DNA of 35,508 bases. Source: a virus. This document shows positions 3,093-35,508 of the stretch, one piece after another. The stretch lies in IMG/VR virus record IMGVR_UViG_3300034121_000119, positions 1 through 35,508 of that record; one strand, given 5' to 3'. Position numbers and translations under genes: made by a program. The notes beneath the pieces were generated by a model, which saw only the letters and a list, made by a program, of their open reading frames with translations, did not search any database and was not told where the DNA came from. Position 1 is the stretch's first letter. Every line of letters begins with the position of its first letter.

Positions 3093-3287
3093 GTGCTAGG
3101 GGATAAAAAAAGCTCAAAACCCGTGACCCACCGGAGTGCCACCCCAACAAGAGGGGAGAAGGAATCCTAGAAATACCCTACACACTAATCTGCTCAAACG
3201 ATCTTGCAATTTAAAAATTGGGCGGACTCGGCTAAAAATCGCCATACAGGGAACACCCCCCGGCCTAAGTAAAAACCCTTACCCCAA
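3093..3287. other. Non-coding segment before the terminase genes
   Basis: No gene on either strand. It contains an inverted repeat CAATTT-AA-AAATTG (3207-3220) and a C-rich/G-rich pair around 3142-3157. Lying just before the small terminase gene it is a natural place for a packaging site, but nothing diagnostic of cos or pac can be seen. Confidence 0.4.
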
Positions 3288-3307
3288 AAAATTTTTGCAA
3301 AAATTTT
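3288..3307. repeat. 20-bp perfect AT-rich palindrome
   Basis: AAAATTTTT-GC-AAAAATTTT is exactly self-complementary over 20 bp. It overlaps the -35 region of the candidate late promoter and sits 49 bp before the terminase small subunit start. Confidence 0.7.
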
Positions 3308-3323
3308 GAAACGCTGTTACATT
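3295..3323 (+). promoter_or_regulatory. Candidate late promoter before the terminase genes
   Basis: TTGCAA (3295-3300), 17 bp, TACATT (3318-3323): four of six matches in each box, correct spacing, and the only reasonable rightward promoter just before the structural operon. The -35 box is part of the AT palindrome, so regulation by a palindrome-binding protein is possible. Confidence 0.4.
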
Positions 3324-3355
3324 TCAGGCATTCCTTTCATTGGTGCGCTTACCCG

Positions 3356-3970
3356 GTGATTAAATTGAACCCTACCCCGGATCATCCGATCCCATTTGAT
3401 TTGTCCGAAGAGTCTCCCGCGACTCAGAAGGATGGCATTGCGATTGCGGCCAACACAATCAACTTCATCGAGCAACTCGGCGGGGGCGTAGACTTCAACG
3501 AGAAAGATGGCGCTAAGGCTGTCGAGCTTGTTACAAAAGCTGCCAAGACACCCCAACACATTAAGTCCTCCGGCCAAGCCGCTGCCGCTTCGGCCATCCT
3601 CAAACGGTACGACTTCCAAGCTGTTGCAGATGCGCAACAAGCACGCAACCTGATTACCAACAAACTGATTGAGCTGTCCGACTGCGGCGACCCAAAGATT
3701 GAGATCAAGGCGCTTGAGCTACTCGGCAAGCATTCAGATATCGGTATTTTTACCGAGCGCAGCGAGATTACTGTGCACCACACCACTTCCAAGTCTCTTG
3801 AGAACTCAATTAAGGAGCGGATCAAGCGGTTGCTTAATACGGACGTAGCGGACATCACGCCGCTAGACGATCTGGATGCTCAGCTAGGCACACCGGGCTA
3901 CGAAATGATCGAGTCGGCGGAAGTTGAAGAAGTTATGGAAGATTCCGAAGAAGAACCTACCAATGACTGA
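3356..3970 (+). CDS. terS: Terminase small subunit
   Basis: 204 aa. DNA-recognition component of the packaging motor. Starts at a GTG (3356); no in-frame ATG or GTG lies upstream before a stop at 3266, and no strong ribosome site is visible, so the start is the weakest part. The N-terminal half is Ala-rich and helical. The central block DPKIEIKALELLGKHSDIG then IFTERSEITVHH is the stretch by which I recognise phage small terminases of this type, and the C-terminus is very acidic (EVEEVMEDSEEE), typical of a segment that contacts TerL. The stop overlaps the TerL start by 8 bp (ATGACTGA). Size and position directly before TerL fit. Confidence 0.85.
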   Translation: MIKLNPTPDHPIPFDLSEESPATQKDGIAIAANTINFIEQLGGGVDFNEKDGAKAVELVTKAAKTPQHIKSSGQAAAASAILKRYDFQAVADAQQARNLITNKLIELSDCGDPKIEIKALELLGKHSDIGIFTERSEITVHHTTSKSLENSIKERIKRLLNTDVADITPLDDLDAQLGTPGYEMIESAEVEEVMEDSEEEPTND

Positions 3971-5486
3971 CGAACAAGTCTCTCTTAACGATATCGAAAC
4001 TCTGGTAGCTGCTGGAAAGTTATCGGACACGGACCTGCGGGTACTAGAGAAGCAGCTTATACATTTGGAGAAGCTCAAAGAACGTGAGCTATCTCAGGAA
4101 AAGTTCATCCATTTCACCAAACGGGTGTGGCCTACGTTCATTGCGGGCAAGCACCACAAGCGAATGGCAGAAGCTTTTGAAAGGGTAGCCCGTGGAGAAT
4201 GCAAGCGCCTCATTATTAATATGCCTCCTCGCCACACTAAGTCAGAGTTTGCCTCTTACTTACTACCTGCTTGGTTTTTGGGCAAGTTTCCGGGCAAAAA
4301 AGTAATCCAGTCGTCCAACACGGGCGAATTGGCGGTCGGTTTTGGTCGAAAAGTGCGAAATTTGGTCGATTCCGAGGTCTATTCCAACATTTTCCCCGAG
4401 TTGCAGCTCCAAGCTGACTCAAAAGCTGCCGGAAGATGGAACACCAGCAAGGGTGGTGACTATTTTGCGATTGGTGTGGGGGGTACAGTGACCGGTAAAG
4501 GTGCTGACCTGCTGATTATTGACGACCCGCACTCAGAACAAGAGGCTGCGATGGCCGCAGTCAACCCAGAAGTCTATGACAAGGTGTACGAGTGGTACAC
4601 GTCAGGTCCACGTCAGCGTTTGCAGCCCGGTGGGGCCATTGTTATTGTGATGACACGCTGGGCACAGCGCGATTTAACGGGCCAAGTGCTCAAAAACGCA
4701 GCTTTGCGGGGTGAAAACGACTGGGAAGTTATCGAATTTCCGGCCATCCTCCCAAGCGGGAACCCACTTTGGCCAGAGTTTTGGTCCAAGGAAGAGCTTG
4801 AAGCGCTGCACGAAGAACTGCCCAATTCCAAGTGGCAGGCCCAGTATCAGCAAAATCCTGTCGGTAACGAGTCGGCGATTATTAAACGCGATTGGTGGAA
4901 GATATGGGAGCCTGAAACGCCACCACGGTGTGACTATATTCTTCAGACATGGGACACGGCGTTTGAGAAAAACCAGCGGGCTGACTATTCTGCGGGTACG
5001 ACTTGGGGCATTTTTAACTGCGAACAAGACGACTTGCGCCCAAACATCATTTTGCTCAACACGTACAAGAAGCGGGTTGAGTGGGTTGAGCTGAAGAAGG
5101 ACGTGCTCAACGAGTACAAAGAGTGGGAGCCTGATGGGTTGCTTATCGAGAAGAAGGCTACCGGGGCTCCGCTAATCTACGAACTTAGGGCTATGGGTAT
5201 TCCTGTGATGGAATACACGCCAAGCAAAGGGCAAGACAAAATTGCCCGGCTAAACTCAGTATCAGACATAATTGCGTCTGGGAAAGTGTGGGTTCCCCAA
5301 ACTCGTTGGGCTGAAGAATTAGTCGATGAAATTGGGGCGTTTCCGTCAGGCGAGCATGATGACTTGGTTGACGCAACAACACTTGCTTTGATGCGTTTTA
5401 GGCAGGGTGGATTCCTTCGACTTCCCAGCGATGAGCCGGACGAAGTCAAGTTGTTCAAATCCAGTCGACGCAATGCGTACTACTAA
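3963..5486 (+). CDS. terL: Terminase large subunit (packaging ATPase and nuclease)
   Basis: 507 aa from the ATG at 3963; a longer frame opens at 3924 but the 8-bp ATGACTGA overlap with terS is the more natural coupled start. N-terminal ATPase: Walker A-like MPPRHTKS (87-94), Walker B LLIIDD (183-188) with the catalytic acidic residue following, and a coupling segment IVIVMTRW. C-terminal RNase H-type nuclease: Asp331 in LQTWDTAF, Glu396 in LLIEKK, and HDDLVDATTLALMRF with Asp470. All expected motor and nuclease residues are present, so it should be active. It cuts concatemers and pumps DNA through the portal. Length is normal for the family. Confidence 0.95.
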   Translation: MTDEQVSLNDIETLVAAGKLSDTDLRVLEKQLIHLEKLKERELSQEKFIHFTKRVWPTFIAGKHHKRMAEAFERVARGECKRLIINMPPRHTKSEFASYLLPAWFLGKFPGKKVIQSSNTGELAVGFGRKVRNLVDSEVYSNIFPELQLQADSKAAGRWNTSKGGDYFAIGVGGTVTGKGADLLIIDDPHSEQEAAMAAVNPEVYDKVYEWYTSGPRQRLQPGGAIVIVMTRWAQRDLTGQVLKNAALRGENDWEVIEFPAILPSGNPLWPEFWSKEELEALHEELPNSKWQAQYQQNPVGNESAIIKRDWWKIWEPETPPRCDYILQTWDTAFEKNQRADYSAGTTWGIFNCEQDDLRPNIILLNTYKKRVEWVELKKDVLNEYKEWEPDGLLIEKKATGAPLIYELRAMGIPVMEYTPSKGQDKIARLNSVSDIIASGKVWVPQTRWAEELVDEIGAFPSGEHDDLVDATTLALMRFRQGGFLRLPSDEPDEVKLFKSSRRNAYY

Positions 5487-16361: not shown

Positions 16362-16768
16362 TGGCATTCCAACAAACTCTTACCACGCAGGCGAAGTTCA
16401 TTGCACTTCAGTATCTGGCTACTGGCACGCTCAAAATGGCGTTGTACACAGCCGAGGCAGACCTTGGCGCAGGCACACTGGTGTACAGCACAACCAACGA
16501 AATCACTGGCACAGGATACGTTGCTGGTGGAAACACTTTGACCGGCGTGACAGTGCAGCAATCAGGCACAACAGCCTATTTGGATTTTGCGGACACAACG
16601 TGGAATCCAGCTAACTTTACAGCGCGTGGAGCGCTCATATACAATACAAACCTCGGCAATCTTGCTGTGGCGGTATTGGATTTTGGTGCTGATAAAACGG
16701 CAACCACTTCGTTCACCGTGCAGATGCCCGCAAACACGGCAACTTCGGCACTTATTCGCATTTCATAA
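16361..16768 (+). CDS. Beta-rich virion protein, 135 aa
   Basis: Begins MAFQQTLTTQAKFIALQYLA. The pattern YTAEADLGAGTLVYSTTNEI, then GTGYVAGGNTLTGVTV, YLDFADTTWNPANFTARGAL and AVAVLDFGADKTATTSFTV is one I recognise from many phage tail or head-completion proteins. Strand-rich with almost no helices; probably a virion structural component of the tail or adhesion apparatus. ATG overlaps the preceding TGA (TGATG). Exact role unknown. Confidence 0.7.
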   Translation: MAFQQTLTTQAKFIALQYLATGTLKMALYTAEADLGAGTLVYSTTNEITGTGYVAGGNTLTGVTVQQSGTTAYLDFADTTWNPANFTARGALIYNTNLGNLAVAVLDFGADKTATTSFTVQMPANTATSALIRIS

Positions 16769-16778
16769 GGAGCACCTC

Positions 16779-17360
16779 ATGTTAGATAACAAGGCAAATT
16801 CAAGTGATTTTATCGGTGCCGCCCTTGCGCTGGCTAAGCCGGTAGAAGAAGGCGTCGGAGCAGGCGGTGTCTATGGCATCCAGTGCTTTGACAAAGACGG
16901 TAACCTGAAGTGGGAGGCAAAGTCCCACAATCTGGTCGTCAACGTCGGCCTGCAAGACATGAACACCAAGTATTTCACGGGCAGTTCGTACACTGCTACG
17001 TGGTTCATTGGTTTGTACGGTGCGGGCGCGTCCAACACCCCTGCCGCTGGCGACACTGCCGCTTCGCACGCAGGCTGGACTGAAGTGGTTCCATACAGCA
17101 ACGCCACGCGCCCCGCAGCGACGTTTGGCACCGCTACCACGGCTGATCCTTCGGTGATCGACAACAGCGCTTCTCCAGCGTCGTTTACCATCAACGCCAC
17201 GTCTACCGTGGGCGGTGCGTTCTTGATTAGCAACAGCACAAAAAGCGGCACTACAGGTATTCTGTTCTCGGCCTCCGACTTTCAAGCGCCCGGCGACCGT
17301 AGCGTTGTTTCTGGTGACACTTTGAACGTCACTTACACTTTCAGCCTCGACGCTGTTTGA
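16779..17360 (+). CDS. Virion structural protein, 193 aa
   Basis: Start at 16779 behind AAGGAG; a longer frame from 16587 has no ribosome site and overlaps the previous gene. Residues about 25-50 read VGAGGVYGIQCFDKDGNLKW, then NLVVNVGLQDMNTKYFTGSS, WFIGLYGAGASNTPAAGDT, and a last VSGDTLNVTYTFSLDAV. This is a beta-type fold, like phage tail proteins that follow the adaptors. No enzymatic motif. Together with 16361-16768 it probably forms part of the tail surface. Confidence 0.7.
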   Translation: MLDNKANSSDFIGAALALAKPVEEGVGAGGVYGIQCFDKDGNLKWEAKSHNLVVNVGLQDMNTKYFTGSSYTATWFIGLYGAGASNTPAAGDTAASHAGWTEVVPYSNATRPAATFGTATTADPSVIDNSASPASFTINATSTVGGAFLISNSTKSGTTGILFSASDFQAPGDRSVVSGDTLNVTYTFSLDAV

Positions 17361-17372
17361 TAGGAGATCATC

Positions 17373-17552
17373 ATGGCAACTAAATTTGCAAAAGCCCAAT
17401 CGGTCCGCGTCAAGGCCGTAATCCCTGAAGGTCCGGTGCAGTCTCTGCGCATGGATGAAGACGGCAATTTCTTCTACATGATCGAGTGGACTGATGCCGA
17501 AGGCAATGTCCAGCATCGCTGGTTTGCGGAAGACGAACTCGAAGCTGCTTGA
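17373..17552 (+). CDS. Small acidic protein, 59 aa
   Basis: ATG at 17373 behind AGGAG. Begins MATKFAKAQSVRVKAVIPEG and ends HRWFAEDELEAA. The middle (SLRMDEDGNFFYMIEWTDAE) is strand-rich and has three aromatic residues. Compact, no Cys, no membrane segment. Tight spacing on both sides (12 nt and 8 nt) supports it as a real gene. No function known. Confidence 0.7.
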   Translation: MATKFAKAQSVRVKAVIPEGPVQSLRMDEDGNFFYMIEWTDAEGNVQHRWFAEDELEAA

Positions 17553-17560
17553 TTTGAACC

Positions 17561-17752
17561 ATGGTCAAGATCGACTTTGAATTTGCAACTCCGCACGGCG
17601 TCTTCCGGGACGCCTTGCACCTGCCTGACGACCACGGCATGACTGATGAGCAGATTGATGCCATGAAACAGCAGCGCGTGGACAACTGGATTGCCATCGT
17701 AACCGCCCCACCAGCAGAAGTTGTTGAAGAAACTCCTCCAACTGAGGAGTAA
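17561..17752 (+). CDS. Small acidic protein, 63 aa
   Basis: Begins MVKIDFEFATPHGVFRDALH, then LPDDHGMTDEQIDAMKQQRV, a helix, and a Pro/Glu/Val-rich acidic tail ending in TPPTEE. No strong ribosome site is visible; the ATG lies 8 nt after the preceding stop, so translation is probably coupled. It is the last gene before the giant fiber gene. The function is unknown; a fiber-assembly or chaperone role would be guesswork. Confidence 0.65.
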   Translation: MVKIDFEFATPHGVFRDALHLPDDHGMTDEQIDAMKQQRVDNWIAIVTAPPAEVVEETPPTEE

Positions 17753-17754
17753 AA

Positions 17755-20700
17755 ATGAGTGATCGCTTCTGGGTTGGTGGTACTGGCACTTGGGACACCA
17801 CCAGCACTACAAACTGGTCTGCTACCTCCGGCGGGGGTAGTGGTGCGTCTGTCCCGACCGTAGCGGATAGCGTCTTCTTTGACCAAGCGGGAACCTACAC
17901 CGTCACCATGACGGGCGCATTGGCCTGTCTAGACATTACAGTGTCAGCAGGTACGGTTACGTTTGCTACGGGTACATCACCTACGCTGAACATTCGCGGC
18001 TCCATGACATTGTTAGCGGGGACTGTGTGGAGCGCAACAGGCGGGATTACATTTAGCGCAACAACCACAGGCAAGACGATTACCCCCAACGGCGCTTCCT
18101 TTGGTGGCAACTTCATACTTAATGGAGTAGGAGGGGAGTGGACTCTTGGAAGCGCCTTAACTACATCAAATTTAATTTTGACGGCGGGTACTTTTAATAC
18201 CTCGACAAGTGGCTACACGGTTACGTTATCGGGTCAACTTAGTTCAAGCAACTCTAATTTACGTGCTCTTATTTTAAATAACTCAACAGTCACCGTTGGA
18301 GTAAATAGTTCTTCGTCAATTAATTTTTCCACTAATACAAACCTTACATTTAATGCAGGAACTTCACAAATAAACTTTGCATCATCTGGTGCAGCGGTAG
18401 GAATAAACCTTCCACTCGGTGCTGGCCTGACGTTTTATAACGTAGCGTGCTCATTTACCAACTCAACTGGGACATCCGTAACCATTCTTGGCGCAAACAC
18501 ATTTAATAACTTTTCTGTTGCCGGACCCGCGTCGGCCAGTGTAACTACAGTCACCTTCAACGCCCAGCAAACCATCAACGGCACACTGTCCACCACAGGC
18601 ACAGCAGGTAACAGGCGCGTATTCTTTGCATCGGCCACTTACGGCATCTCACAAGACCTTGTGGTCAATTCTGCCCCAAGCCTGACAGACGCAGACTTCC
18701 GTGGCCTGTATGTCCGTGGCACAGCAGCCCCCATCAGCGGAACACGCATCGGCAATCGCGGTGAGTGCAGGGGCATCACGTTTGATGCGCCTAAGACGGT
18801 GTTTCTTGTTGGCTCTGGGTCACAAAACTTTGCCAATAACGTCTGGGCGCAAACTTCGGGCGGGTCTTCATCGCTCGTATATTACCCATTAGCACAAGAT
18901 ACCGCAGTTATTGATAATTTTGTATCTGCGGGGTCGTCGATAACTTCTAGCAATGTAGTTGGATATTTGCCGGGTGTTGACGCTTCATTAAGAACGTCCT
19001 CCGTAACAATCAATTTTAATAGTGGAACAACAATCTATGGTAGTTGGACAAACGGCTCCGGCGTTACTTTTAGCAATTCAGCAACATTAACTTTCTCCGG
19101 CGGCACAACCCAAACCATCACCAGCGCAGGTAAAACATTTACTTGCCCCATCACCATCGACACCTACGGCGGCACAGTACAGCTTGCTGATGCGTTAAAC
19201 ATTGGGTTAAACTTGCTGACAGTAACAAACGGTACGTTTAATACAGCGGGGTATGCGGTAACCGCTAACACCTTGTCTTCCACCAATAGTAACGTCCGAA
19301 CAATTAACCTCGGCGCTAGTACGTTAACGCTTGCTACCGCTAATTTTATAAACTTTGGAACTTCAACAAATTTAACTTTTAACGCTGGCACATCGCAAAT
19401 AAATGGCACAGGAAGCGGGAGTATTTCATTCGCAGGTGGCAGTCAGACGTTTTACAATGTGGCCTACACATCAACAGGGTCATCAAACACATTTATTATA
19501 AATGGCGCAAATACGTTCAACAATTTAACAATTACAGCGCCAGCATTGGCGGCAATAGCGGCATTATCGTTTTCTGCCAACCAAACCATCAACGGCACAC
19601 TTACCTGCGCTGGGGCATCCGCAGTACGGCGCATTTTCTTGCGTTCAAACACCATCGGCACTCCGCGCACCCTGACGGTCAACGCCATCTCTGCCACTGA
19701 CTGCGACTTCCGCGACATCAACCTTGCTGGCGCAGCATCAGGCGCATCGCCTACACGCGCAGGTGACTGTGGAGGCAATACAGGCATTACGTTCCCAGCA
19801 CCCAAGACGGTGTACTGGAACCTTGCTGGAGCTCAAAACTGGAGTGCTACGGCTTGGGCTTCGGGGTCTGGTGGATCGCCTGACATCAACAACTTCCCAC
19901 TGGCACAAGATACGGCTGTGTTTGATGACACGGGCAGCGTGACGGGCACGATCACAATCAACGCAGCATGGAACATTGGCACGTTTGACGCTTCACTGCG
20001 TACCAGCGCGATGACGCTGAATGCCGCATCAAACTCTCCCTCAATTTATGGCAATTGGACATTTGGCACAGGCGTTACTCAGTCGAGTAATCCGGGAGCA
20101 ATTACGTTTTCCAGAAACGGTACACAAACTATCACCAGCAATGGCGTTCAGTTTGGCTGCCCCGTAACCATCAACCACCCGCTTGCAAACGTCCAGCTTG
20201 CTGATGCGCTGTCTTTAAACTCCGCAAGAACTTTGTCGGTTAATACGGGAACATTTGATGCCGCTACCTACAACGTGACAACGGGGTTGTTTTTGCAGTC
20301 AGCGTCTGTGAATACCGTAAAAATGGGGTCTGGCACTTGGACTTTATCCGGTACGGGTAGTGTATGGCTTGCAAGTTCGGGTGCAGGAATTAACTTAATC
20401 GCTGGAACTTCCACTATTGTTTTGTCCGATACATCAACAAGTGCAAGAACTTTTTCTGGCAGCGGTCTTTATTACAACAAACTTACCATTGGCGGCGCAA
20501 CAGGCACATCAACGCTGACGATTACTGGCAACAACACTTTTGGAGAACTTGCTTCTACCAAGACGGTTGCACACACCATCTTGTTTCAGGCGGCAGCCAC
20601 AACCACAATCGGAAAATGGGCTGTTGCCGGAACGGTAGGCAACGTAGTCACCGTCCAATCAGACATCGCAGCCGCAGTCTTTAACCTCTCCATTGCAGGA

Positions 20701-23700
20701 CCCGCCAACAGCGGCATTGATTACCTGTCTGTCCGAGATTGTCTTGTTTCCGCCACAAGCCCCGGCGAGTTTTACGTTGGCGCAAACAGCACGAACGTAT
20801 CCAACAACACTCGCGTTGTTTTCACAGCTACCCCTGCACCTCGCACACTATATTGGGTCGGCGGCACAGGTAGCTGGTCATCCACAACCAAGTGGTCTAC
20901 GTCATCTGGGGGTAGCTCTGGCGCAGCTATCCCAACATCACTTGATGCGGTTAACTTTGATGCGCTGTCTAACGCCACAGCCTACACAGCCACCATTGAC
21001 GCTGGTGTAACGCTTGCCCGGTGTGCCTCGTTCACAATGGCTGGCCCTGCTGCTGGCAACGTGACTTTTGCTGGCTCGGTGGGTATTGCCTTTCACGGCA
21101 ACGTAAGTTTTGCTGCTACGAGGATTACTCGGACGTACTCGGGCGCAATGAATTTAGCGGGTAATTCAAGTTATACGTTTACACCAAACGGTGTTGGGTT
21201 TACTGCGTCAACAGTTATGACTGTTATTGGGGTTGGCGCTACGTGGACGCTTGGCGGGGCAGTATCACAAGTACAGTTTGCAATATCGGCGGGATCATTT
21301 TCTAGCAATGGTTACAGTCTTAATGTTGTGGGGTTTACAGGTAATAACACTAACGTATATTCTGTATCGCTTGGATCAAGCACTATTACTCTAGGTGGAA
21401 GCAGTGTTGGTTTATCAGGAGTAAACGTAACTTTAGACTCTGGAACTTCTACTTTTCTTTTTAATGGCGGCAACTCTTTTTCAGGTGGTGGAAAAACTTA
21501 TCATAATATTACTTGGAACGCATTCGGCAACACTAGTTATTTTATTTTTGGGAGTAATACTTTTAATAATATGACAATAAATGGTAGTAGCAATATAGGT
21601 ATTAATTCATTTTCATTCTATGCCAACCAAACAATTGGTACGCTAACGCTTAATGGTGGTGCTACGGCTGCTTACAGGAATTTCTTAACCTCAGACACCA
21701 TTGGTACACCCCGAACATTGACGGTTGGCACTCTGACCGCTGGCGCTGCTGACATTGACTTCCGCGACATCACCATTGCTGGCGCTGCTGCTCCGATCTC
21801 CGGCACTCGGTTTGGCGATGCCAAGGGCAACAGCGGGATTACGTTTGATGCGGCCAAGACGGTGTTTTATCGTCAAACAGGATCAGCCAACTGGGGTGCA
21901 ACAGGATCGGGTTCATGGTCCGACACATCTGGCTCGGCTTTAGATGCAACCAAGTTTCCGCTTGCCCAAGACACAGCCGTTTTTCCTGCGGCCACATATC
22001 CATCGTCCGGATCAACGACAACTATCGACGCCAACTACAACATCGGCACGATTGATATGTCGTTGCGTACCACCAACACGATGACGTTGGCAACGGGTAC
22101 GACTACGCCAGCAATCTACGGCAACTGGATTAACGGCACAGGCACTACGCTGTCGGGTACGGGAGCAATGACGTTTGCAGGGCGCGGCAGTCAGACAATT
22201 ACAAGTGTAGGCAAGACGTTTACTCAGCTTTTCACAATCAACACCCCAGAGGGTTCTGTAACCCTGCAAGACGCGTTTGCGGCAAGCCAAAGCAACGGCA
22301 GTGTTTTGGTAATTACACAGGGCACGTTTGACGCAGTAACCTACAACGTCACACTGTCTGGCGCGGTATCAGGGGTGAGTTTGACAGGCTCAGGAACACG
22401 AACTGTTGCTGTCGGCTCGGGAACTTGGTCAATCGCCGGAACGACTGGGTCATGGAATGCTGCCAGTCCCACAAACCTCACAGTCACAGGTACGGGAACA
22501 ATCAGCCTAACCAACGCATCAGCCAAGACCTTTGCAGGCGGCGGAGCAAACTACTCTGACATCACGGTTAATCAAGGCGGTGCAGGGGCGTTATCCATTA
22601 CGGGCAACAACACCCTTAAAACCATAACCAACACCTACAGCGCTACAGGGGCAACGACCATCAACCTTGGCGCTACAACTCAGACCCTGACAAGCCCTTG
22701 GACAGCAACAGGCGAAGCAGGACGCGTTCTAACCATCAGCGGCACGTCAGCCACATCTCCCGCCACTTTGATCTTCAGCGGCTCTGGCACTGCTGCTGAC
22801 GTGGACTACCTAACAATCAACAACGTCGAGGCATACGACCTCGTAAGCGAGTGGTACGCGGGGACAAACTCCACCAACGGCGGTTCGTTGGGCTGGTACT
22901 TTATTGCCAAACCAACTGCAAACATCTACTTCGTGTTTGTTACGGAGTCAGCTAGTGGGGTGGATGCTGTACTGGCTACGGCAACCTCAATCTACAACAG
23001 CAGCGTTGCCGAAACCGCCAGTGGCATTGACGCCGTCTCAGCGCTTGGGACGCTTGGAAACCTAGTCCTTGAGTCTGCCAGCGGAGTAGACGCAGTTTCG
23101 GCGTTGGCCGCGTTGAGTAGTGCGGTAGCGGAATCGGCCAGTGGGGCTGACGTAACCTCGGCTCTTGCGTCGCTTGGCAGTGCAATTTCTGAAGCGGCCA
23201 GCGGAGTGGACAATCAAACCGCAACCGCAACACTGTTGAGTAGTATTGCTGAAGCTGCCAGTGCAATTGACGCTACCGCCGGGGGCGCGGTCTTTACTCC
23301 TATTGTTTTGGAATCTGCCAGCGGGATTGATGCCGCCAGCTCCTCCTTAATTGCAGGTGGTTTGGTACAGGAAAGCGCAACGGCGGTAGACGCCACCAAC
23401 TCGGCTTTGACAGCTGTAGCGTCCGTAAGCGAATCAAGCACTGCATTGGATTCTGTGAGCACCATAATGGTTTCCGAATCCTCTGTCATCGAAAGCGCAG
23501 TTGCAGCAGATGCCGCCGCTTCGTTAACCATTGTGGTGTCCGCTATAGACGAGGCTACTGAGGGCTTGGATGCGTCGGCTGCGCAGCTGACGGCCTCTTC
23601 TTCTGTGTCGGAAGACGGCCAAGCCTCCGAGATCGTCGCTACTCAATTTACTGCCTCAGCTTTGGCGAACGAATCAGGCACTGCAGCGGACTCCGTCAGC

Positions 23701-26556
23701 TCGGCAATGACTGCCGAATCTTCCATCAGCGAAAGTGCAAACGTAGCAGATGCGGCGTCCTCTTCCTTCCTCGTCGGCTCTACCGTAAACGAGGCCGCGC
23801 AGGTTGCTGATGCCTCTGTGGCTCAAATGACGGCTCAGTCTTCTGTTGCGGAAGCCGCACAGGCCGCCGATCAGGCCGCCGCTCAACAGGTTGCTTTAGC
23901 CCAAATTTCAGACACCGTGCAAGCGCTTGACGCACAGTCTGCGCAGCTCAATGCAGCCGCCTCGGTCGCCGAGTCAGCACAAGTCGCCGATCAGGCCGAA
24001 TCCGGGTACGTGGCCCAGTCTCAGGTGACCGAAGCCGCCCTAACCCTTGATCAAGCATCATCAAGTTACGTAGCCCTTTCCGTCGTGTCGGAAACAGCAA
24101 GTATTCAGGACACGGCAAATGCTGTGTTTGTAGCGGAGTCCACTGTTTCCGAAACTGCAAGTATTCAGGACACCACAGCGGCGGTTCCAACGTACTTGAG
24201 TAGTACCGCTGAAACCGCTAGACCTTCAGATGCCGTGGCAACCAACGCAGTCTTTTTTGCGCAGGTTTTGGCTGGAGAAGGAGGCACGGGCACTATCACG
24301 GAAAACACCAGCACCTACCCGGTGGGGACGTCGTTCACTGGATCGCAGTTCTTCAACAGCTCCTCCGCAGGAAACGGGGTCAGGGTGGTGGCCAACGGCA
24401 CGGGCACGGGCTCCACGGGCGGGTTCAATGCAGGTGGAAACCATATCCGTTTTGGTGGCGCAGGCACAGCGGGCCTTCGTTCATTGACCACGGTGCCACT
24501 TAATTTGACAAGCGCCACTTCTGTAACTTTTTCGGCCATCTCTGGAAACAACGCCAATGGAGGCGAGGTTCCTGACGGCGGGGAGAGTCTGGGCCTGTAC
24601 TACAGCCTTAATGGTGTGGCGTACACCTTGGTCGACTTCCTGATGGTTCCCGGCAACCCAAGCTACCCGCTGTCGCCCACGTTCTCCAATTTTGTGGAAG
24701 TTTTGCCCCCGGCTGCCAAAACAGCCTCCACGTACCTGCAGGTTCGCCAGCTAAACAGCTCGTCCGCGACACTGGATAACTACGGTATCCGCACGATCAC
24801 GATTACGCAATCGGGCGGAGGATCGTCGGTGGGCGTGTCGGACTTCGCCCAAGCTGGCGGCACGTATAACGCCCCAATCGCTGACACCGTGCAAGCTCAA
24901 GACACTGCAGCCGCGCGCATGACGGCGGGCAGTGTCGTTGCTGAATTAGCCGGAGCACAAGACGCAGTAACACCCGACCTGCAAATCTTTCGTTCCGTGC
25001 AGGAGCTCGCCGAAGGTTCGGATCAGATTCAAGCAGGTGCCGTATTTCGTGGAACAGCCCAAGAATTCGCCACTGCCCAAGATGCGACGGCCACTCAACT
25101 GGTGTTTTTGTCAAACGCCAACGAATCCGCCCGTGGACAAGCCCAAGAGTCCGCCCAAGTTTCCTTTGGGTCGCAAGTGCAGGAAGACGCCACCGCACAA
25201 GATTCGGTTGCCCGTCAACTGATCGTCCCGCGTACGGTCAGCGAGTCTGCTCAGGCCTCTGAACAAGCTCAAACCCAAGCCACGTTCCTTGGATCGGCCC
25301 AAGAGTCTTCTCAGGCCCAAGACACCGTAGTCCGTCAACTGATTGTTCCTCGTAGCGTCAGCGAGACGGCCAGTGCTCAGGATCAGCAAGCAGCGACCCC
25401 CTCTATTGGGGTGCAGGTGCAAGAAGACGCCACCGCACAAGATTCGGTTGCCCGTCAACTGATCGTTCCACGTACAGTCAGCGAGTCTGTTCAAGCCCAA
25501 GACTCGGTTGCTCGTCAGCTAATCGTCCCAAGAAGCGTCAGCGAGACAGCAAGCGCCCAAGACCAAGAAGCGGCGTCTCTCTTTTTTGCGTCGCAAGTGC
25601 AGGAAGATGCTGCTACCCAAGACTCGATTGCCGGCCAACTTATCATCCCGCGCACAGCCAGTGAGTTTGCTCAAGCTGCTGGGCAAGTTCAAACCAAGGC
25701 CGTGTTCCGTGGGGCGACCCAAGAGACCGCTCGGGTGGCGGACGAGTTAATAGCCGGTGGCGACTTTACCGCTGCCACCACGGAGAGCGCCCAAATTTCC
25801 GATCAAGACTCTGCGGGGCTGACGGCTGAAAGCTCAGTATCTGAGCAGGCATCCATGGCCGATGCGGTGGTGGGCATTCGCGTGGTGTTTGGAGTTGTGG
25901 TTGAAAGCGCCCAAGCATCCGACCAAAGTAGCACTACCTTAATTGCTGGTGCGCGAATCGAGGAACAGGCCAACGCCCGTGACAGCGTGGCATCTACTGC
26001 CGTCTTCATCTCGTCAATCGCCGAACTGGGTCGGGCACTGGACACTTCCGCCGGGTTCATCGTGATGCCCGCGTCTGTGGCCGAACTGGCTGAAGCCCAA
26101 GATTCGGATGTTGGCTTCATCACCTTCCCAGCGGTAATTTCTGAGGGAGCCACCGGAACAGAGCTTGCTGCCGTGCAGGCCACGTTCCGCGCATTGATTT
26201 CCGAGCAAGTCGCTGGGCAAGAAGTAGTTGACGCCCCAAACAGTACGTACAACGTCCAAGTTGTCCAGTCCATCCAAGTCCAAGACTTCCTGTTTCTCAA
26301 CGGCATTTACAACGCCGCCGTTGAGGAAGTCCTCGTGGTGTTGGATCAAGCTTCAGGTACGTACCTGTGGAACCTCATCAACGACGACCAGACGCCGGAC
26401 TGGGGAAATATCGTTAGCGCCCAGACTCCGCTGTGGAGCAATATAGATGACGCACAGTCCACAAACTGGCAAAATGTCGGGAATGCTCAAGGTACTTCGT
26501 GGACGCAAATTAACACCGACGACGATCCAAGCTGGCAACCACTACCCCCACCGTAA
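17755..26556 (+). CDS. Giant modular tail fiber or adhesin, 2,933 aa
   Basis: ATG behind GGAG. Four regions. (1) Five modules of 337-362 residues starting near residues 1, 347, 684, 1030 and 1368; modules 1 and 4 open with WVGGTGTW- or WVGGTGSW-type blocks, and modules 2, 3 and 5 follow a GITFxAxKTV joint. They are Thr/Ser/Asn/Gly-rich and strand-like, as in extracellular beta-helix proteins. (2) Residues 1731-2172: 22 tandem repeats of 20 residues (consensus E-S-A-S-x-x-D). (3) Residues about 2173-2360: a beta domain with Gly/Asn-rich loops (FGGAGTAGLRSLTTVPLNL, NNANGGEVPDGGESLGLYYS), lectin- or reelin-like in look. (4) About 24-25 more 20-residue repeats from 2377, then a Trp-rich end (2868-2933). 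Probable host-binding appendage; receptor unknown. No protease or chaperone cleavage site is evident. Confidence 0.82.
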   Translation: MSDRFWVGGTGTWDTTSTTNWSATSGGGSGASVPTVADSVFFDQAGTYTVTMTGALACLDITVSAGTVTFATGTSPTLNIRGSMTLLAGTVWSATGGITFSATTTGKTITPNGASFGGNFILNGVGGEWTLGSALTTSNLILTAGTFNTSTSGYTVTLSGQLSSSNSNLRALILNNSTVTVGVNSSSSINFSTNTNLTFNAGTSQINFASSGAAVGINLPLGAGLTFYNVACSFTNSTGTSVTILGANTFNNFSVAGPASASVTTVTFNAQQTINGTLSTTGTAGNRRVFFASATYGISQDLVVNSAPSLTDADFRGLYVRGTAAPISGTRIGNRGECRGITFDAPKTVFLVGSGSQNFANNVWAQTSGGSSSLVYYPLAQDTAVIDNFVSAGSSITSSNVVGYLPGVDASLRTSSVTINFNSGTTIYGSWTNGSGVTFSNSATLTFSGGTTQTITSAGKTFTCPITIDTYGGTVQLADALNIGLNLLTVTNGTFNTAGYAVTANTLSSTNSNVRTINLGASTLTLATANFINFGTSTNLTFNAGTSQINGTGSGSISFAGGSQTFYNVAYTSTGSSNTFIINGANTFNNLTITAPALAAIAALSFSANQTINGTLTCAGASAVRRIFLRSNTIGTPRTLTVNAISATDCDFRDINLAGAASGASPTRAGDCGGNTGITFPAPKTVYWNLAGAQNWSATAWASGSGGSPDINNFPLAQDTAVFDDTGSVTGTITINAAWNIGTFDASLRTSAMTLNAASNSPSIYGNWTFGTGVTQSSNPGAITFSRNGTQTITSNGVQFGCPVTINHPLANVQLADALSLNSARTLSVNTGTFDAATYNVTTGLFLQSASVNTVKMGSGTWTLSGTGSVWLASSGAGINLIAGTSTIVLSDTSTSARTFSGSGLYYNKLTIGGATGTSTLTITGNNTFGELASTKTVAHTILFQAAATTTIGKWAVAGTVGNVVTVQSDIAAAVFNLSIAGPANSGIDYLSVRDCLVSATSPGEFYVGANSTNVSNNTRVVFTATPAPRTLYWVGGTGSWSSTTKWSTSSGGSSGAAIPTSLDAVNFDALSNATAYTATIDAGVTLARCASFTMAGPAAGNVTFAGSVGIAFHGNVSFAATRITRTYSGAMNLAGNSSYTFTPNGVGFTASTVMTVIGVGATWTLGGAVSQVQFAISAGSFSSNGYSLNVVGFTGNNTNVYSVSLGSSTITLGGSSVGLSGVNVTLDSGTSTFLFNGGNSFSGGGKTYHNITWNAFGNTSYFIFGSNTFNNMTINGSSNIGINSFSFYANQTIGTLTLNGGATAAYRNFLTSDTIGTPRTLTVGTLTAGAADIDFRDITIAGAAAPISGTRFGDAKGNSGITFDAAKTVFYRQTGSANWGATGSGSWSDTSGSALDATKFPLAQDTAVFPAATYPSSGSTTTIDANYNIGTIDMSLRTTNTMTLATGTTTPAIYGNWINGTGTTLSGTGAMTFAGRGSQTITSVGKTFTQLFTINTPEGSVTLQDAFAASQSNGSVLVITQGTFDAVTYNVTLSGAVSGVSLTGSGTRTVAVGSGTWSIAGTTGSWNAASPTNLTVTGTGTISLTNASAKTFAGGGANYSDITVNQGGAGALSITGNNTLKTITNTYSATGATTINLGATTQTLTSPWTATGEAGRVLTISGTSATSPATLIFSGSGTAADVDYLTINNVEAYDLVSEWYAGTNSTNGGSLGWYFIAKPTANIYFVFVTESASGVDAVLATATSIYNSSVAETASGIDAVSALGTLGNLVLESASGVDAVSALAALSSAVAESASGADVTSALASLGSAISEAASGVDNQTATATLLSSIAEAASAIDATAGGAVFTPIVLESASGIDAASSSLIAGGLVQESATAVDATNSALTAVASVSESSTALDSVSTIMVSESSVIESAVAADAAASLTIVVSAIDEATEGLDASAAQLTASSSVSEDGQASEIVATQFTASALANESGTAADSVSSAMTAESSISESANVADAASSSFLVGSTVNEAAQVADASVAQMTAQSSVAEAAQAADQAAAQQVALAQISDTVQALDAQSAQLNAAASVAESAQVADQAESGYVAQSQVTEAALTLDQASSSYVALSVVSETASIQDTANAVFVAESTVSETASIQDTTAAVPTYLSSTAETARPSDAVATNAVFFAQVLAGEGGTGTITENTSTYPVGTSFTGSQFFNSSSAGNGVRVVANGTGTGSTGGFNAGGNHIRFGGAGTAGLRSLTTVPLNLTSATSVTFSAISGNNANGGEVPDGGESLGLYYSLNGVAYTLVDFLMVPGNPSYPLSPTFSNFVEVLPPAAKTASTYLQVRQLNSSSATLDNYGIRTITITQSGGGSSVGVSDFAQAGGTYNAPIADTVQAQDTAAARMTAGSVVAELAGAQDAVTPDLQIFRSVQELAEGSDQIQAGAVFRGTAQEFATAQDATATQLVFLSNANESARGQAQESAQVSFGSQVQEDATAQDSVARQLIVPRTVSESAQASEQAQTQATFLGSAQESSQAQDTVVRQLIVPRSVSETASAQDQQAATPSIGVQVQEDATAQDSVARQLIVPRTVSESVQAQDSVARQLIVPRSVSETASAQDQEAASLFFASQVQEDAATQDSIAGQLIIPRTASEFAQAAGQVQTKAVFRGATQETARVADELIAGGDFTAATTESAQISDQDSAGLTAESSVSEQASMADAVVGIRVVFGVVVESAQASDQSSTTLIAGARIEEQANARDSVASTAVFISSIAELGRALDTSAGFIVMPASVAELAEAQDSDVGFITFPAVISEGATGTELAAVQATFRALISEQVAGQEVVDAPNSTYNVQVVQSIQVQDFLFLNGIYNAAVEEVLVVLDQASGTYLWNLINDDQTPDWGNIVSAQTPLWSNIDDAQSTNWQNVGNAQGTSWTQINTDDDPSWQPLPPP
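22945..24270 (+). repeat. 60-bp tandem repeats, block 1 (22 copies)
   Basis: Each unit encodes 20 residues (first unit 22), with Glu at position 1, Asp at 7 and a Val/Ile near 19. DNA-level identity has drifted, while the protein period is exact through 21 consecutive units. Confidence 0.8.
24883..26355 (+). repeat. 60-bp tandem repeats, block 2 (about 24-25 copies)
   Basis: Same 20-residue period after the interposed beta domain. Parts are nearly identical at DNA level: a stretch from 25177 recurs at 25417 (240 bp on) and, less exactly, at 25597; another from about 25351 recurs 180 bp on. Confidence 0.8.
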
Positions 26557-26565
26557 GGAAAACGT

Positions 26566-27669
26566 ATGACAGGAAATACTCAATTACTCGGACTGGCTCT
26601 GCCGGTTGACGGCGGACTTGACGGCGAATGGGGTGATGTTGTTAACGACTCGATTACCTCGCTGGTGGACTCTGCTGTAGCGGGAACTACCACTCTGAGC
26701 GCAGACGCAGACGTTATATTAAGTTCTGACAACCTTATAGCCAACCAAGCCCGGCAGGCGATTATTCGATGGACGGCAAGTAATGGGGCCACGACTCGAA
26801 ACATTACCGCGCCAGCCCAAAGTAAGCCCTACATTGTCATCAACGCAGGTACGGGCTCGATTGTTTTGCGGGGTAACGGCAGTCCGCCAACCACAGGCAT
26901 TACGATTGTGTCTGGCGAAAAGTGCTTAGCCGCGTGGAATGGCTCAGACTTTGTGAAGGTGGCTACCAGCAACGTTACTTCGGGGACGGTTACCAGTGTT
27001 GGCGGAACGGGAACGGTTAACGGAATCTCCCTGTCCGGCACAGTTACATCTTCGGGCAACTTAACCCTTGGCGGCGCACTTTCTGGCGTTAGTCTTGCCA
27101 CGCAAGTTACGGGCATACTGCCCGCCGGAAGCGGCGGCACCGGGTTGAGCAGTGCTGGCACGGCAGGGAACGTGCTTACATCAAACGGGACAACTTGGAC
27201 TTCAGCAACACCAACTACTCCACCCGCTCAGGTCTATCCCGGTGCAGGCGTTGCAGTCTCTACCGGCACAGCGTGGGCAACATCACTGACGGCCCCGTCT
27301 GGAGCTATTGTTGGAACCACAGATACGCAGACGCTGACAAGCAAGCGGATCACTTCCCGTATTGGAACTACCGCATCGACGTCCACCCTCACCATTGACG
27401 CAGACGTTACCGATCAGTACAACGTAACGGCCTTGGCTACGGGCATGACCATTGCAGCGCCAACCGGTACGCCAACAGACGGGCAGAAACTGATTATCCG
27501 GATATTGGACAACGGGACAGCTCGTGCTTTAACTTGGAATGCCATTTTCCGAGTGGTCGGAACAATCTTGCCCACGACCACTGTAGTATCAAAAACCACT
27601 TACGTTGGAGCCATCTATAACGTGGCAGCAGTAAGATGGGATGTTATCGGCGTCTTAACCCAAGCCTAA
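26566..27669 (+). CDS. Tail fiber protein, 367 aa
   Basis: Start behind AAGGAAAAC. The N-terminus GLALPVDGGLDGEWGDVVND is a common opening of phage fibers that attach to a baseplate or hub. Next ITAPAQSKPYIVINAGTGS and TSGTVTSVGGTGTVNGISLS, then GNLTLGGALSGVSLATQVTG and ILPAGSGGTGLSSAGTAGN: the low-complexity Gly/Thr/Ser shaft typical of trimeric fibers. C-terminal part (GTPTDGQKLIIRILDNGTA, ALTWNAIFRVVGTILP) is a beta tip. A second, conventional fiber beside the giant one. Confidence 0.8.
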   Translation: MTGNTQLLGLALPVDGGLDGEWGDVVNDSITSLVDSAVAGTTTLSADADVILSSDNLIANQARQAIIRWTASNGATTRNITAPAQSKPYIVINAGTGSIVLRGNGSPPTTGITIVSGEKCLAAWNGSDFVKVATSNVTSGTVTSVGGTGTVNGISLSGTVTSSGNLTLGGALSGVSLATQVTGILPAGSGGTGLSSAGTAGNVLTSNGTTWTSATPTTPPAQVYPGAGVAVSTGTAWATSLTAPSGAIVGTTDTQTLTSKRITSRIGTTASTSTLTIDADVTDQYNVTALATGMTIAAPTGTPTDGQKLIIRILDNGTARALTWNAIFRVVGTILPTTTVVSKTTYVGAIYNVAAVRWDVIGVLTQA

Positions 27670-27679
27670 GGAGTAGTAC

Positions 27680-28705
27680 ATGGCTGACAGATATTGGGTA
27701 GGGGGCAATGGCGTATGGAACTCTACCAACACAACAAACTGGTCTGCCACGTCTGGTGGGGCTGGCGGAGCGTCTGTCCCGACCTCTTTAGACAATGTTT
27801 ATATTAACACCAGCTCAGGTCCAGTAAACCTCGAGATTACTACGGCTACCGGATACACGCCGGTGTGTTACACGTTTACCATGAGCAGGGGAACTTTAGC
27901 ACCCGGAATTGTTTTTAACGCTCCATTTGTAATAGGGGATGTATCCGGGGGGGCAAATTCAGGAAACTTCTCGATTACTGCGGGGACTGTGGTTTACTTC
28001 GAACCCATCCGAATACAGGGAAGTACGACCGGAACGCCTTCGACGGTTTTTTTGCCTAATGCCAATTCAATTATTGGTAATTTTGAGATTGCGTCAGGCA
28101 GCGTCCAGCTAAATTCTAATTTCAGTGTTAATAGTGGTGGCATCTTCGTAAAAAGCGGAGCAACACTTGATGTTTCAGGGAGGACGGTTACGGCAACTGA
28201 TGTGGAGGTGGAGTCTTCAGGCACCTTGACCACTTCTTCTTCGACATTTACCACGAGCTTTTGGACACTCCATAGCGGGGCGGTCGTCAATTCCAGTGGA
28301 ATCTCCATTTTAACGGTTAACAGTGTTTTTAGTGACCTTGGTCCAACTAGCAGAACGTATCCAAGCGTGGCTTTTCCTTCGTCTCCGACGGTAGATGTTC
28401 CTGCATCTGTGACCTTCACAGCTTTTGCGTTAAGCGGCATGCGTGTAAAAGCAGGCCAAACCATTTATGTGGGCACTTTAACTAACCCTTCTACTTCGGT
28501 TCGGACGCTGTCTACGTCTAATTCTCCGGGGCAGTTCACCTTGTCCTCTCCTAGCGGGACGAAAACGCTAAGCTTTTTGAATATTTCTAATTGCAATGCG
28601 ACAGGGGGGGCGACATGGGTTGCGCCTACATCATCGGTGGACAGCGGCAACAACACCGGTATCCAGTTTGCAAACAGTCAGGGGTTTTTGGCTTTTTTTG
28701 GATGA
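27680..28705 (+). CDS. Fiber protein, single-module paralog of the giant fiber, 341 aa
   Basis: ATG behind AAGGAG. Opens MADRYWVGGNGVWNSTNTTN then WSATSGGAGGASVPTSLDNV, nearly the same as the start of the giant fiber (SDRFWVGGTGTWDTTSTTN), and ends SSVDSGNNTGIQFANS, like the GITF-type joint between the giant fiber modules. Its length equals one module. In between: strand-rich, Ser/Thr/Val-rich sequence. It is therefore a free-standing copy of one module and probably a fiber or fiber-tip component. No enzymatic motif. Confidence 0.78.
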   Translation: MADRYWVGGNGVWNSTNTTNWSATSGGAGGASVPTSLDNVYINTSSGPVNLEITTATGYTPVCYTFTMSRGTLAPGIVFNAPFVIGDVSGGANSGNFSITAGTVVYFEPIRIQGSTTGTPSTVFLPNANSIIGNFEIASGSVQLNSNFSVNSGGIFVKSGATLDVSGRTVTATDVEVESSGTLTTSSSTFTTSFWTLHSGAVVNSSGISILTVNSVFSDLGPTSRTYPSVAFPSSPTVDVPASVTFTAFALSGMRVKAGQTIYVGTLTNPSTSVRTLSTSNSPGQFTLSSPSGTKTLSFLNISNCNATGGATWVAPTSSVDSGNNTGIQFANSQGFLAFFG

Positions 28706-33476: not shown

Positions 33477-35508
33477 ATGCCAGCAATACCATTTATTGCG
33501 ATAGGACTTGGAGCTTCCGGCGCTTTTGCTACTGCGGGCGCTGCACTCGCTTCGGTAATCGGCCTAGGCACTGTCAGCGCCGCCGCTGCAACTGCAATTG
33601 GTGCTGGAGCGTTTTCTGCTGCCGCAACCGCTGTTCAAGGCGGCAAGGCAAGCGATGTCCTGAAGTCCGCCGTCTTGGGCGGGGTTACATCTTACGCCGG
33701 ATCAGCCATCGCCGGGTCTGTTGCAAACTCTGTTTCATCTGCCGCAAGCGGGCTTGATCCCGGCATTGCAAGCGCGATGGGTAGGGTTGCAGGGTCGGCT
33801 GTTGCCGGAGCCATATCTTCTGGAACATCAGCTTTGATTTCTGGCAGAGACCCCATAGACGCTCTCCTTAAGGGTGGCTTGACCGCCGCGATGTCCGCTG
33901 GTGTTGGTGCTGGCGTAGATGCTTTGCTCAAAGATGTCCCAGCGTTTTCAAATCCTTTGAACAACCAAGAAGCGGCCATACAGCGGGCCACAAGAGCGGC
34001 GATTGGAACGGCCATCGCATCTGGCGGGAATGCGGACGCAATTGGGATGTCCATCCTGAATTCTTTTGCGGCCACTGCTAGTCAGTATGTTGGCACTCAA
34101 ATCAAGGACTCAAGCGCAAATTTGTCTGCTGCAAACTCTCAGTTTAGAGCTTCCGAGAGCGAATACAGGAGTAACCTTGAGCAGCAAGAAAAACTGGCTG
34201 CTGACTACAACAGGCAACTTGCTCCGCTGCAAGAAAGCGCAACAAGGGTCAACAACACCATCGGCGAATACGACAAGATTGCGGCTAACTACAACAACTA
34301 TGACTCTTGGATGAGGAGTCAGGGTTATGAATATCAGCCTCCCACATATGATGATTGGGGTTCTGGCGGCGATTATTGGGCAAAACAGGTATACAGGCCA
34401 GAAAGGCAAGCGAGCGGCTGGGGTGAATATGTGTATGAAACATGGACTATTCCAGCAGGATACGACTTGCAGCAAGCTCCAAACGAGCTTTCAAAAACTG
34501 CTTTGTACAATCAAGCGAAGGCTCTCGACGCACAAGCCGTTGCCGAGTCCAAAGCATTCAATGATCTGAAAGTGCAACTTTTGGGCGGTGAGGTAACAAA
34601 GTACCGCACTGAAATGCAATATCAGGCATACAGCGACTATGACGTGCAACTTGTTGAAGTCCAAGTTCCATACAAAGAAACTGTAACTGGATCGCTTACC
34701 CCGGTCAAAAATCAACTTGATTCTTTAAAGTCGAGTATTGAACCCCTTGGCAAAAATCTTGCCGAACAGAAAACAAAACTTGAAAATGCAGTAACTGACT
34801 TCAGCAACGCAGAGACTCAAAATGCTGCTGTTGTCAAATCCCAACTTGATAATTTTGTAACCGCAAGCAAGCAGTACAAAGATGAGTTTGGAGTTGATCC
34901 GACTGAAAATCAGCTAAAGAGTTTCGCATCCTCTGGTGACATTCTTGGAACTGTCAGTAAGCTCGTTGCTGACAACAACAACGAACAAGCTGCGCAGCAG
35001 GCTGGGTTCAGCAATTACGCCGACTACGCCGCCGCCGGGAACATTTCTTCTAATGATTACTACGCCAAGCAGCAAGGCTGGCAGGACTACGCACAAAAGC
35101 TCAATGCTCAGGCCAACGGCTACAACGCCCCAAGTGCGTGGAGCACATTTGTCAGCAACAATCAAACTGCTGTTAACAACGGCTTTGTAAATTTTGATGA
35201 CTATCAAGCCGCTGCTGGTGCGCCATCAAACGACTTCTACGCCAAGCAAAATGGCTGGGAAAGCTACGCTCAAAAGCAACAGGCGGAAGACTCTGGGTTC
35301 AGAAACCCAACCACATGGAACACCCATGTTGTCGATGTCAGGAATCAAGAATCCGCAAGGGCTGCTCAAGCAGAAGCGGAGCGCGTTCGGGTAGCTGAGG
35401 AAGCTCGTGTAGCTGAGGAAGCGCGTGTAGCTGAGGAGGCTCGTGTAGCTGAGGAAGCGCGTGTAGCTGCTCAAGCAGAAGCTGATCGGCAAGAGCAATT
35501 AGCTAGGG
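33477..35508 (+). CDS. Large internal virion/ejection-type protein (3' end outside window)
   Basis: ATG at 33477, open through the right edge (677 codons visible). Residues 1 to about 215 are extremely Ala/Gly/Ser/Ile-rich (LGASGAFATAGAALASVIGL, GAGAFSAAATAVQGGKASDV), like membrane-inserting helices. The middle is charged and coiled-coil (residues about 220-500). Then two imperfect 59-residue repeats start at 513 (NYADYAAAGNISSNDYYAKQ) and 572 (NFDDYQAAAGAPSNDFYAKQ), followed by an 18-bp tandem repeat coding RVAEEA. A huge, helical, partly hydrophobic protein after the tail nozzle is what T7-like inner-core ejection proteins look like. A fiber or adhesin is a less likely alternative. Confidence 0.72.
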   Translation, partial: MPAIPFIAIGLGASGAFATAGAALASVIGLGTVSAAAATAIGAGAFSAAATAVQGGKASDVLKSAVLGGVTSYAGSAIAGSVANSVSSAASGLDPGIASAMGRVAGSAVAGAISSGTSALISGRDPIDALLKGGLTAAMSAGVGAGVDALLKDVPAFSNPLNNQEAAIQRATRAAIGTAIASGGNADAIGMSILNSFAATASQYVGTQIKDSSANLSAANSQFRASESEYRSNLEQQEKLAADYNRQLAPLQESATRVNNTIGEYDKIAANYNNYDSWMRSQGYEYQPPTYDDWGSGGDYWAKQVYRPERQASGWGEYVYETWTIPAGYDLQQAPNELSKTALYNQAKALDAQAVAESKAFNDLKVQLLGGEVTKYRTEMQYQAYSDYDVQLVEVQVPYKETVTGSLTPVKNQLDSLKSSIEPLGKNLAEQKTKLENAVTDFSNAETQNAAVVKSQLDNFVTASKQYKDEFGVDPTENQLKSFASSGDILGTVSKLVADNNNEQAAQQAGFSNYADYAAAGNISSNDYYAKQQGWQDYAQKLNAQANGYNAPSAWSTFVSNNQTAVNNGFVNFDDYQAAAGAPSNDFYAKQNGWESYAQKQQAEDSGFRNPTTWNTHVVDVRNQESARAAQAEAERVRVAEEARVAEEARVAEEARVAEEARVAAQAEADRQEQLAR
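35388..35477 (+). repeat. 18-bp tandem repeat (5 units)
   Basis: Units of the form CGTGTAGCTGAGGAAGCT encode RVAEEA; four near-identical units, and a fifth diverging to RVAAQA, inside the ejection-type gene at the right edge. Confidence 0.85.

Follow-up and report, generated by a model that had tools for sequence, protein, structure and literature searches.

The locus examined here raises the question of what kind of protein a phage builds from a short unit repeated dozens of times, and what a single unrelated domain may be doing within that array. The window, as we call the whole stretch of DNA analysed (35,508 nucleotides, or 35.5 kb, a virus record from an uncultured phage), encodes a 2933-residue tail protein (17755..26556, plus strand, as are all parts of this gene and both of its neighbours). 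It is surrounded by genes for a terminase, a portal, a major head protein, head-tail proteins, an endolysin and a P22 gp10-like stabilization protein, a gene set similar to that of a short-tailed phage with a gp10-like protein. Near the window end, an 18-base tandem repeat (35387-35469, 4.6 copies) encodes 'RVAEEA' inside a 3'-open ORF (33477-35507).

Within the 2933-residue ORF we counted 47 complete 20-residue units, 22 in array A (22939..24264, residues 1729-2170) and 25 in array B (24877..26364, residues 2375-2870), flanking a 189-residue non-repeat domain at residues 2174-2362; a preliminary description made from the letters alone had proposed about 47 units split by one domain, and that count holds. 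The Glu slots of array A fall at residue 1731 and then at every twentieth residue exactly from 1753 to 2153, and those of array B at every twentieth residue exactly from 2377 to 2817 and then at 2838 and 2858, such that the sole spacing exceptions are the first one of array A, of 22 (1731 to 1753), and one of 21 in array B (2817 to 2838), matching the two exceptions described earlier. Autocorrelation at period 20 was 0.39 in array A and 0.29 in array B, about twice the highest values obtained at any period from 8 to 40 in 300 residue shuffles (0.20 and 0.14, respectively). Between adjacent units, identity averages no more than ~41-48% for DNA and 29-40% for protein, which is why Tandem Repeats Finder detected at the DNA level no more than a short piece (25434-25563). 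Judged by this divergence, the units are old and their length has nevertheless been kept, implying that the fixed length belongs to the protein and is not a mark of recent duplication. The one recent-looking duplication lies in residues 2475-2634 (VARQLIVPR units), where the units at 2475 and 2555 share 93% DNA identity. The repeats are thus exact in length, as had been stated, and diverged in sequence.

The inserted domain (24274..24840) enters a unit after position 3, and the unit resumes at position 9. On direct reading, Val2171-Ala2173 occupy unit positions 1-3 and Asp2363 occupies position 9, and the latter half of this unit, Asp2363-Pro2374 (24841..24876), is in phase with array B. When searched in isolation, the domain matched Pfam Reelin_subrepeat-B (PF21471) at 28.2 bits, above the cut-off of 27, with a core at residues 2226-2350; within the whole 2933-aa protein the same match scored 22.8 bits and stayed below it. 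A template-free AlphaFold model built from 9 sequences reached a pLDDT of mostly 60-83 in the core and below 50 in the flanks, and a Foldseek search of the PDB with this model returned reelin structures at all of ranks 1-8 (E 8e-9 to 3e-6; TM by query 0.40-0.46, disordered flanks included), followed by Eph ligand-binding domains, MAM, cleaved adhesin, CBM35 and CBM4. The jelly-roll fold of reelin subrepeats is similar to that of carbohydrate-binding modules and has a Ca2+ site on its convex side (PMC4882317). By profile and model, then, the inserted domain is a Reelin-subrepeat-B-like, or CBM-like, jelly roll, and the folds closest to its model comprise proteins that bind other proteins (reelin, Eph receptors) and CBMs alike. 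Its conserved motifs, N..NGGE.PD..GE.L and D.YG, could form a Ca2+ or ligand site. The earlier proposal of a lectin-like domain in the stalk is therefore borne out for the fold class by Pfam, AlphaFold and Foldseek, with sugar binding itself putative.

To find relatives, we first used the stabilization protein encoded nearby as a query, which led into the family. Scans with one short and one longer repeat protein then gave 326 and 383 relatives, respectively, and a profile of the unit identified 196 proteins with 1639 distinct units, some near-identical contigs being counted, so that the search for the repeat in other phages that had been suggested was productive. Across these 196 proteins, 2444 of 2628 detected spacings were exactly 20, and most of the others were 40, 41, 60 or 62, which look like one or two units missed by detection. 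The unit consensus is V/I-x-E-T/S-A-T-G-T/S-D-x-V/I-S-A-x-x-x-F/Y-x-A-x, with Glu3 conserved at 97% and Asp9 at 93%, in line with the recurring Glu and Asp seen earlier in the window. Most of the proteins occupy one tail-gene slot and typically have 260-360 aa, the usual layout being a GWGSGTWGQAGWGD head, 10-14 units and a Trp-repeat tail. All 69 proteins of this layout whose head and tail could be read keep one register: counted from the first Glu, the tail follows after whole units and 13 further residues. The window's final unit keeps the same phase (Glu2858 to Leu2871).

The repeat belongs to a widespread phage family that Pfam, PHROGs and NCBIfam all lack, and we found no description of it in the papers searched. 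The earlier remark that the unit matches no nameable fold thus agrees with its absence from curated libraries, but the domain within the stalk is recognisable as Reelin subrepeat B. Exact peptide words from the window's own domain or arrays retrieved no relatives, and tblastn with the repeat was mostly unsuccessful, probably owing to low-complexity masking. A peptide-word search of 84,980 bacterial and archaeal genomes likewise returned no relative, by a method too insensitive to exclude one. PDB sequence searches with the repeat or the inserted domain gave no relative; weak matches to ribosomal, designed-helix and deformylase entries were judged to be chance. A weak match to phrog_12240 (24.8 bits) and scattered Pfam matches of single members (NAD_binding_2 and others) were judged to be effects of composition.

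Unit counts of uninterrupted stalks, in a sample whose relatedness was not controlled for, appeared to favour steps of four: the giant forms had 14, 18, 22, 26, 30 or 34 units (one had 25) in a set of eight (L183, L184, L185, L187, L191, L198, L199, L204), and short forms in L081-L160 mostly had 10 and 14, with others at about 15 and 19. We sought a four-unit sequence period to account for these steps and did not clearly find one. The window, with 48 units when the split one is counted, falls outside the series. In L059, an ORF (3183-4190) has a second GWG head motif, 'AWGQNSWGSNSWGG', amid its repeat array, as though it had arisen by fusion of two such proteins.

The window protein is a giant form of this family, distinguished by an extra N-terminal module of ~1720 residues, many more units and the inserted domain. 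The module (17755..22917, residues 1-1721) is rich in Gly, Thr and Ser, contains internally repeated 'W.GG.G.W...WS..SGG' blocks and is probably beta-helical; it matched nothing in Pfam, PHROGs or NCBIfam. Scanning viral contigs with it yielded 145 relatives, and, apart from the window, 29 retrieved ORFs have the module running on into the 20-residue array. Among the 145, L182 does not differ from the window at any of its 473 residues, but its contig ends inside the gene, making it uninformative on the inserted domain. Copies also occur apart from the repeat: two genes downstream of the giant gene, a 341-aa ORF (27680-28705) holds a single-module second copy, 'DRYWVGGNGVWNSTNTTNWSATSGG', and a separate 646-aa relative lies near the short repeat gene of L157. 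At the other end, the Trp tail (26365..26553, residues 2871-2933) consists of 11-residue repeats, W..I.D.QT..., and is common to the relatives, with lengths that differ mostly by 22 residues (41, 63). Since it is also found on proteins with unrelated stalk repeats (L063, L075, L161:1150-2277), it probably represents a separate module for attachment or capping.

Giant and short forms share their gene neighbourhood. In most loci the repeat gene is flanked by a gene for a ~190-aa protein directly upstream (an in-frame relative of the window ORF at 16587..17360) and by one for a 'LLGLALPV..GEL.G.WGD.VN' protein downstream (phrog_3030; 26566..27669), which has long fibre-like versions in relatives, and the slot of the giant is occupied in relatives by a 260-363-aa repeat protein in the same gene order. 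Where the contig extends far enough, the expected neighbours were present upstream in 125 of 146 and downstream in 116 of 150 short-form loci, and upstream in 23 of 29 and downstream in 17 of 25 giant loci (window counted). Two repeat ORFs occurred together in just 1 of 195 loci, which, combined with the same flanking genes, indicates that the giant is an alternative form at one shared locus. Two small ORFs (59 and 63 aa, 17373-17752) separate the ~190-aa gene from the giant gene; in the short-form relatives examined, the corresponding gap is ~2-10 bases.

The reading that we favour, and consider probable, is that the 20-residue units form the stalk of a tail fibre on which exchangeable binding modules are displayed; the repeat, its family and conserved length, the tail-cluster locus, the identity of the inserted domain and an exchange of domains near one site are observed, and from them we infer the fibre role, the binding of a receptor or sugar and the attachment of one end to the virion. 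Structure prediction, proposed beforehand as a check, is compatible with such a stalk. An AlphaFold model of the last units and tail (residues 2695-2933, 51 relatives) shows, at low confidence (mean pLDDT 55, pTM 0.35), two 7-residue strands per unit and no helix, the predicted strands spanning unit positions 19-5 and 9-15 and the turns lying at 6-8 and 16-18. Conserved and variable positions alternate along the unit, with an entropy power of 4.5 at 180 degrees versus 0.3-0.7 at 100-110, a period of 2 as in beta strands and a pattern independent of the model. Together, the low-confidence model and the conservation pattern suggest that the stalk is probably all-beta. This contradicts an ordinary coiled coil, which along with a low-complexity linker would suit the richness in Ala, Ser and Thr; given the absence of heptads and helix, the Gly and Thr at turns, the beta-type conservation and an exact length over 1639 distinct units, we find either scarcely credible. 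A tape-measure-like ruler inside the particle would likewise combine constant unit length with variable copy number, yet tape measures are mostly helical whereas both the predicted structure and the conservation here are beta, the gene set resembles that of a short-tailed phage with a gp10-like protein, and the inserted domains are of surface type, all of which make a ruler very improbable.

No structure matched the stalk model significantly (best E 0.71), the insignificant matches being largely beta-solenoids, among them RTX and a Ca2+-dependent antifreeze beta-helix. If the stalk were a solenoid in which each unit added a rise of 0.48 nm, as is general for beta-solenoids, it would be ~23 nm long. 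Such matches bear on a further possibility, that the stalk is an RTX-like beta-roll or solenoid whose Glu3 and Asp9 form acidic ladders that bind Ca2+ and let it fold only outside the cell. The two residues share a face with hydrophobic residues and have no conserved basic partner, which speaks for such ladders; on reading, however, the GGxGxD nonapeptides of RTX proteins are absent, Pfam gave no RTX match and no fold match is significant. We regard Ca2+ binding as unlikely, and it would in any case add detail to a tail-fibre stalk instead of competing with it.

Most giants have no insert at all, and of the members found none but the window has the Reelin-like domain. Two others, L203 and L235, carry in the stalk a Gly_rich_2 domain (38.1 bits, cut-off 24.3; residues 2152-2375 in L203) that matches tail-fibre and minor-tail PHROGs and splits one unit at about positions 13-16, immediately ahead of the unit 'LQEAATAQDAVNAPGSAYN', much as the window's domain lies immediately ahead of a similar 'SDFAQAGGTYNAP' stretch. 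By these landmarks the two insertion sites are at most about one unit apart, that is, at nearly the same place; their identity is unproven, because several 'APGS.YN' units exist. In L198, which is close to L203 in this region, the corresponding unit is uninterrupted. Both insertion points (3-9 and 13-16) fall at or beside predicted turns of the unit. As the Reelin-like domain occurs in the window alone, exchange rests on two domain types. Gly_rich_2 is also present close to the stalk start in the short forms L319 and L333, and additional C-terminal domains occur in L203 and L285, the latter's being a beta-propeller (SBBP, 44.5 bits).

The same observations weigh on the idea that stalk and jelly roll are scaffold only, a part of the tail or a decoration without contact to the host, with the jelly roll joining fibre to fibre or fibre to virion in the manner of many beta-sandwich domains of phage tails. 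Reelin's related domains pack on each other and the close folds include protein binders (PMC4882317), and the cyanophage proteins with this domain are baseplate proteins and may be purely structural. Nevertheless, other giants lack the domain and L203/L235 have an unrelated one near the site, absence and replacement that are unusual for a required structural contact and usual for host-interaction modules, and we consider a pure scaffold improbable.

Returning to the displaying fibre, we chart the following model. The window gene would encode a virion tail appendage with a rigid beta stalk, each unit forming strand-turn-strand-turn (7+3+7+3 residues), in which unit copy number would set stalk length and the unit turns would tolerate entire inserted domains. 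The Reelin-subrepeat-B/CBM-like jelly roll, in turn 1 about half-way along the stalk, would be a putative surface-binding (adhesin) module; relatives have either nothing at the site or, in turn 2, a tail-fibre domain of the Gly_rich_2 family. The fibre would end in the N-terminal module on one side and in the Trp-rich tail on the other, and one of these would anchor it to the virion. A bolder version, possible but doubtful, holds that the unit is an undescribed beta-repeat fold with internal Glu3 and Asp9 acidic ladders, a length-adjustable rail of abundant aquatic phages into either turn of which unrelated binding domains plug with the phase undisturbed; if true, it would be a general mechanism for changing host recognition mid-fibre instead of at the tip. 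If stalk-unit turns do accept whole domains, phages would have a second route besides tip exchange to alter adhesion, and the stalk would offer a natural scaffold for displaying binding modules. Independently of this, a repeat in hundreds of viral contigs that Pfam, PHROGs and NCBIfam lack leaves tail genes unannotated.

Set beside known systems, the 'novel appendage design' of the preliminary description proves too strong, as phages are already known to have long fibres on which adhesin domains are mounted and the repeat recurs in hundreds of related viral contigs. Reelin (PF21471; PDB 2ddu, 2e26, 5b4x) is both the sequence-family and the best fold match of the inserted domain, at ~25% identity in the fold alignment; its repeat, however, has the order A subrepeat-EGF-B subrepeat, whereas the window has one copy, set in a phage repeat stalk, with no EGF match in Pfam. 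Homologous domains, 29-35% identical, occur in annotated virion proteins of the cyanophages S-SCSM1, S-RIM8, S-H9-2, S-WAM2 and ACG-2014b, including baseplate-wedge and structural proteins; cyanophage baseplate-wedge, short-tail-fibre and tail-collar proteins are also among the best viral-library fold matches. These homologues are multidomain, that of S-SCSM1 having a subtilisin-like N-terminus and LamG-like parts (identified by eye), and we detected no 20-residue stalk in the retrieved stretches. The Gly_rich_2 tail-fibre domains (PF21722; PHROGs 863, 356) hold nearly the same stalk place in L203/L235, though they are unrelated to the window's domain family and use a different turn. Halovirus phiCh1 ORF34, an annotated 'repeat-containing tail fiber protein' that varies by inversion, has repeats ('AVSDSQTAMD') that look like the 20-residue unit in its first half; their period is 10 residues and the similarity is marginal (E 0.04), a lead only. 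The short 260-363-aa proteins of the same gene slot (such as L002, L022 and L157) have the unit, the Trp tail and the gene neighbours in common with the window and differ in having a GWG head in place of the ~1720-residue module and 10-14 units. A second family of stalk repeats, the ~22-residue 'TGVxATGxVG' (L161 (OR003939), L063, L075, L050, L021), substitutes for the 20-residue repeat in related phages. The named and annotated genome of phage DSL-LC04 encodes a tail-cluster protein (WJZ48131) with a GWG-type head, a Trp tail and a stalk of these 22-residue units in place of the 20-residue unit, a comparison that, at the level of sequence, is one of ends retained and stalk repeat swapped.
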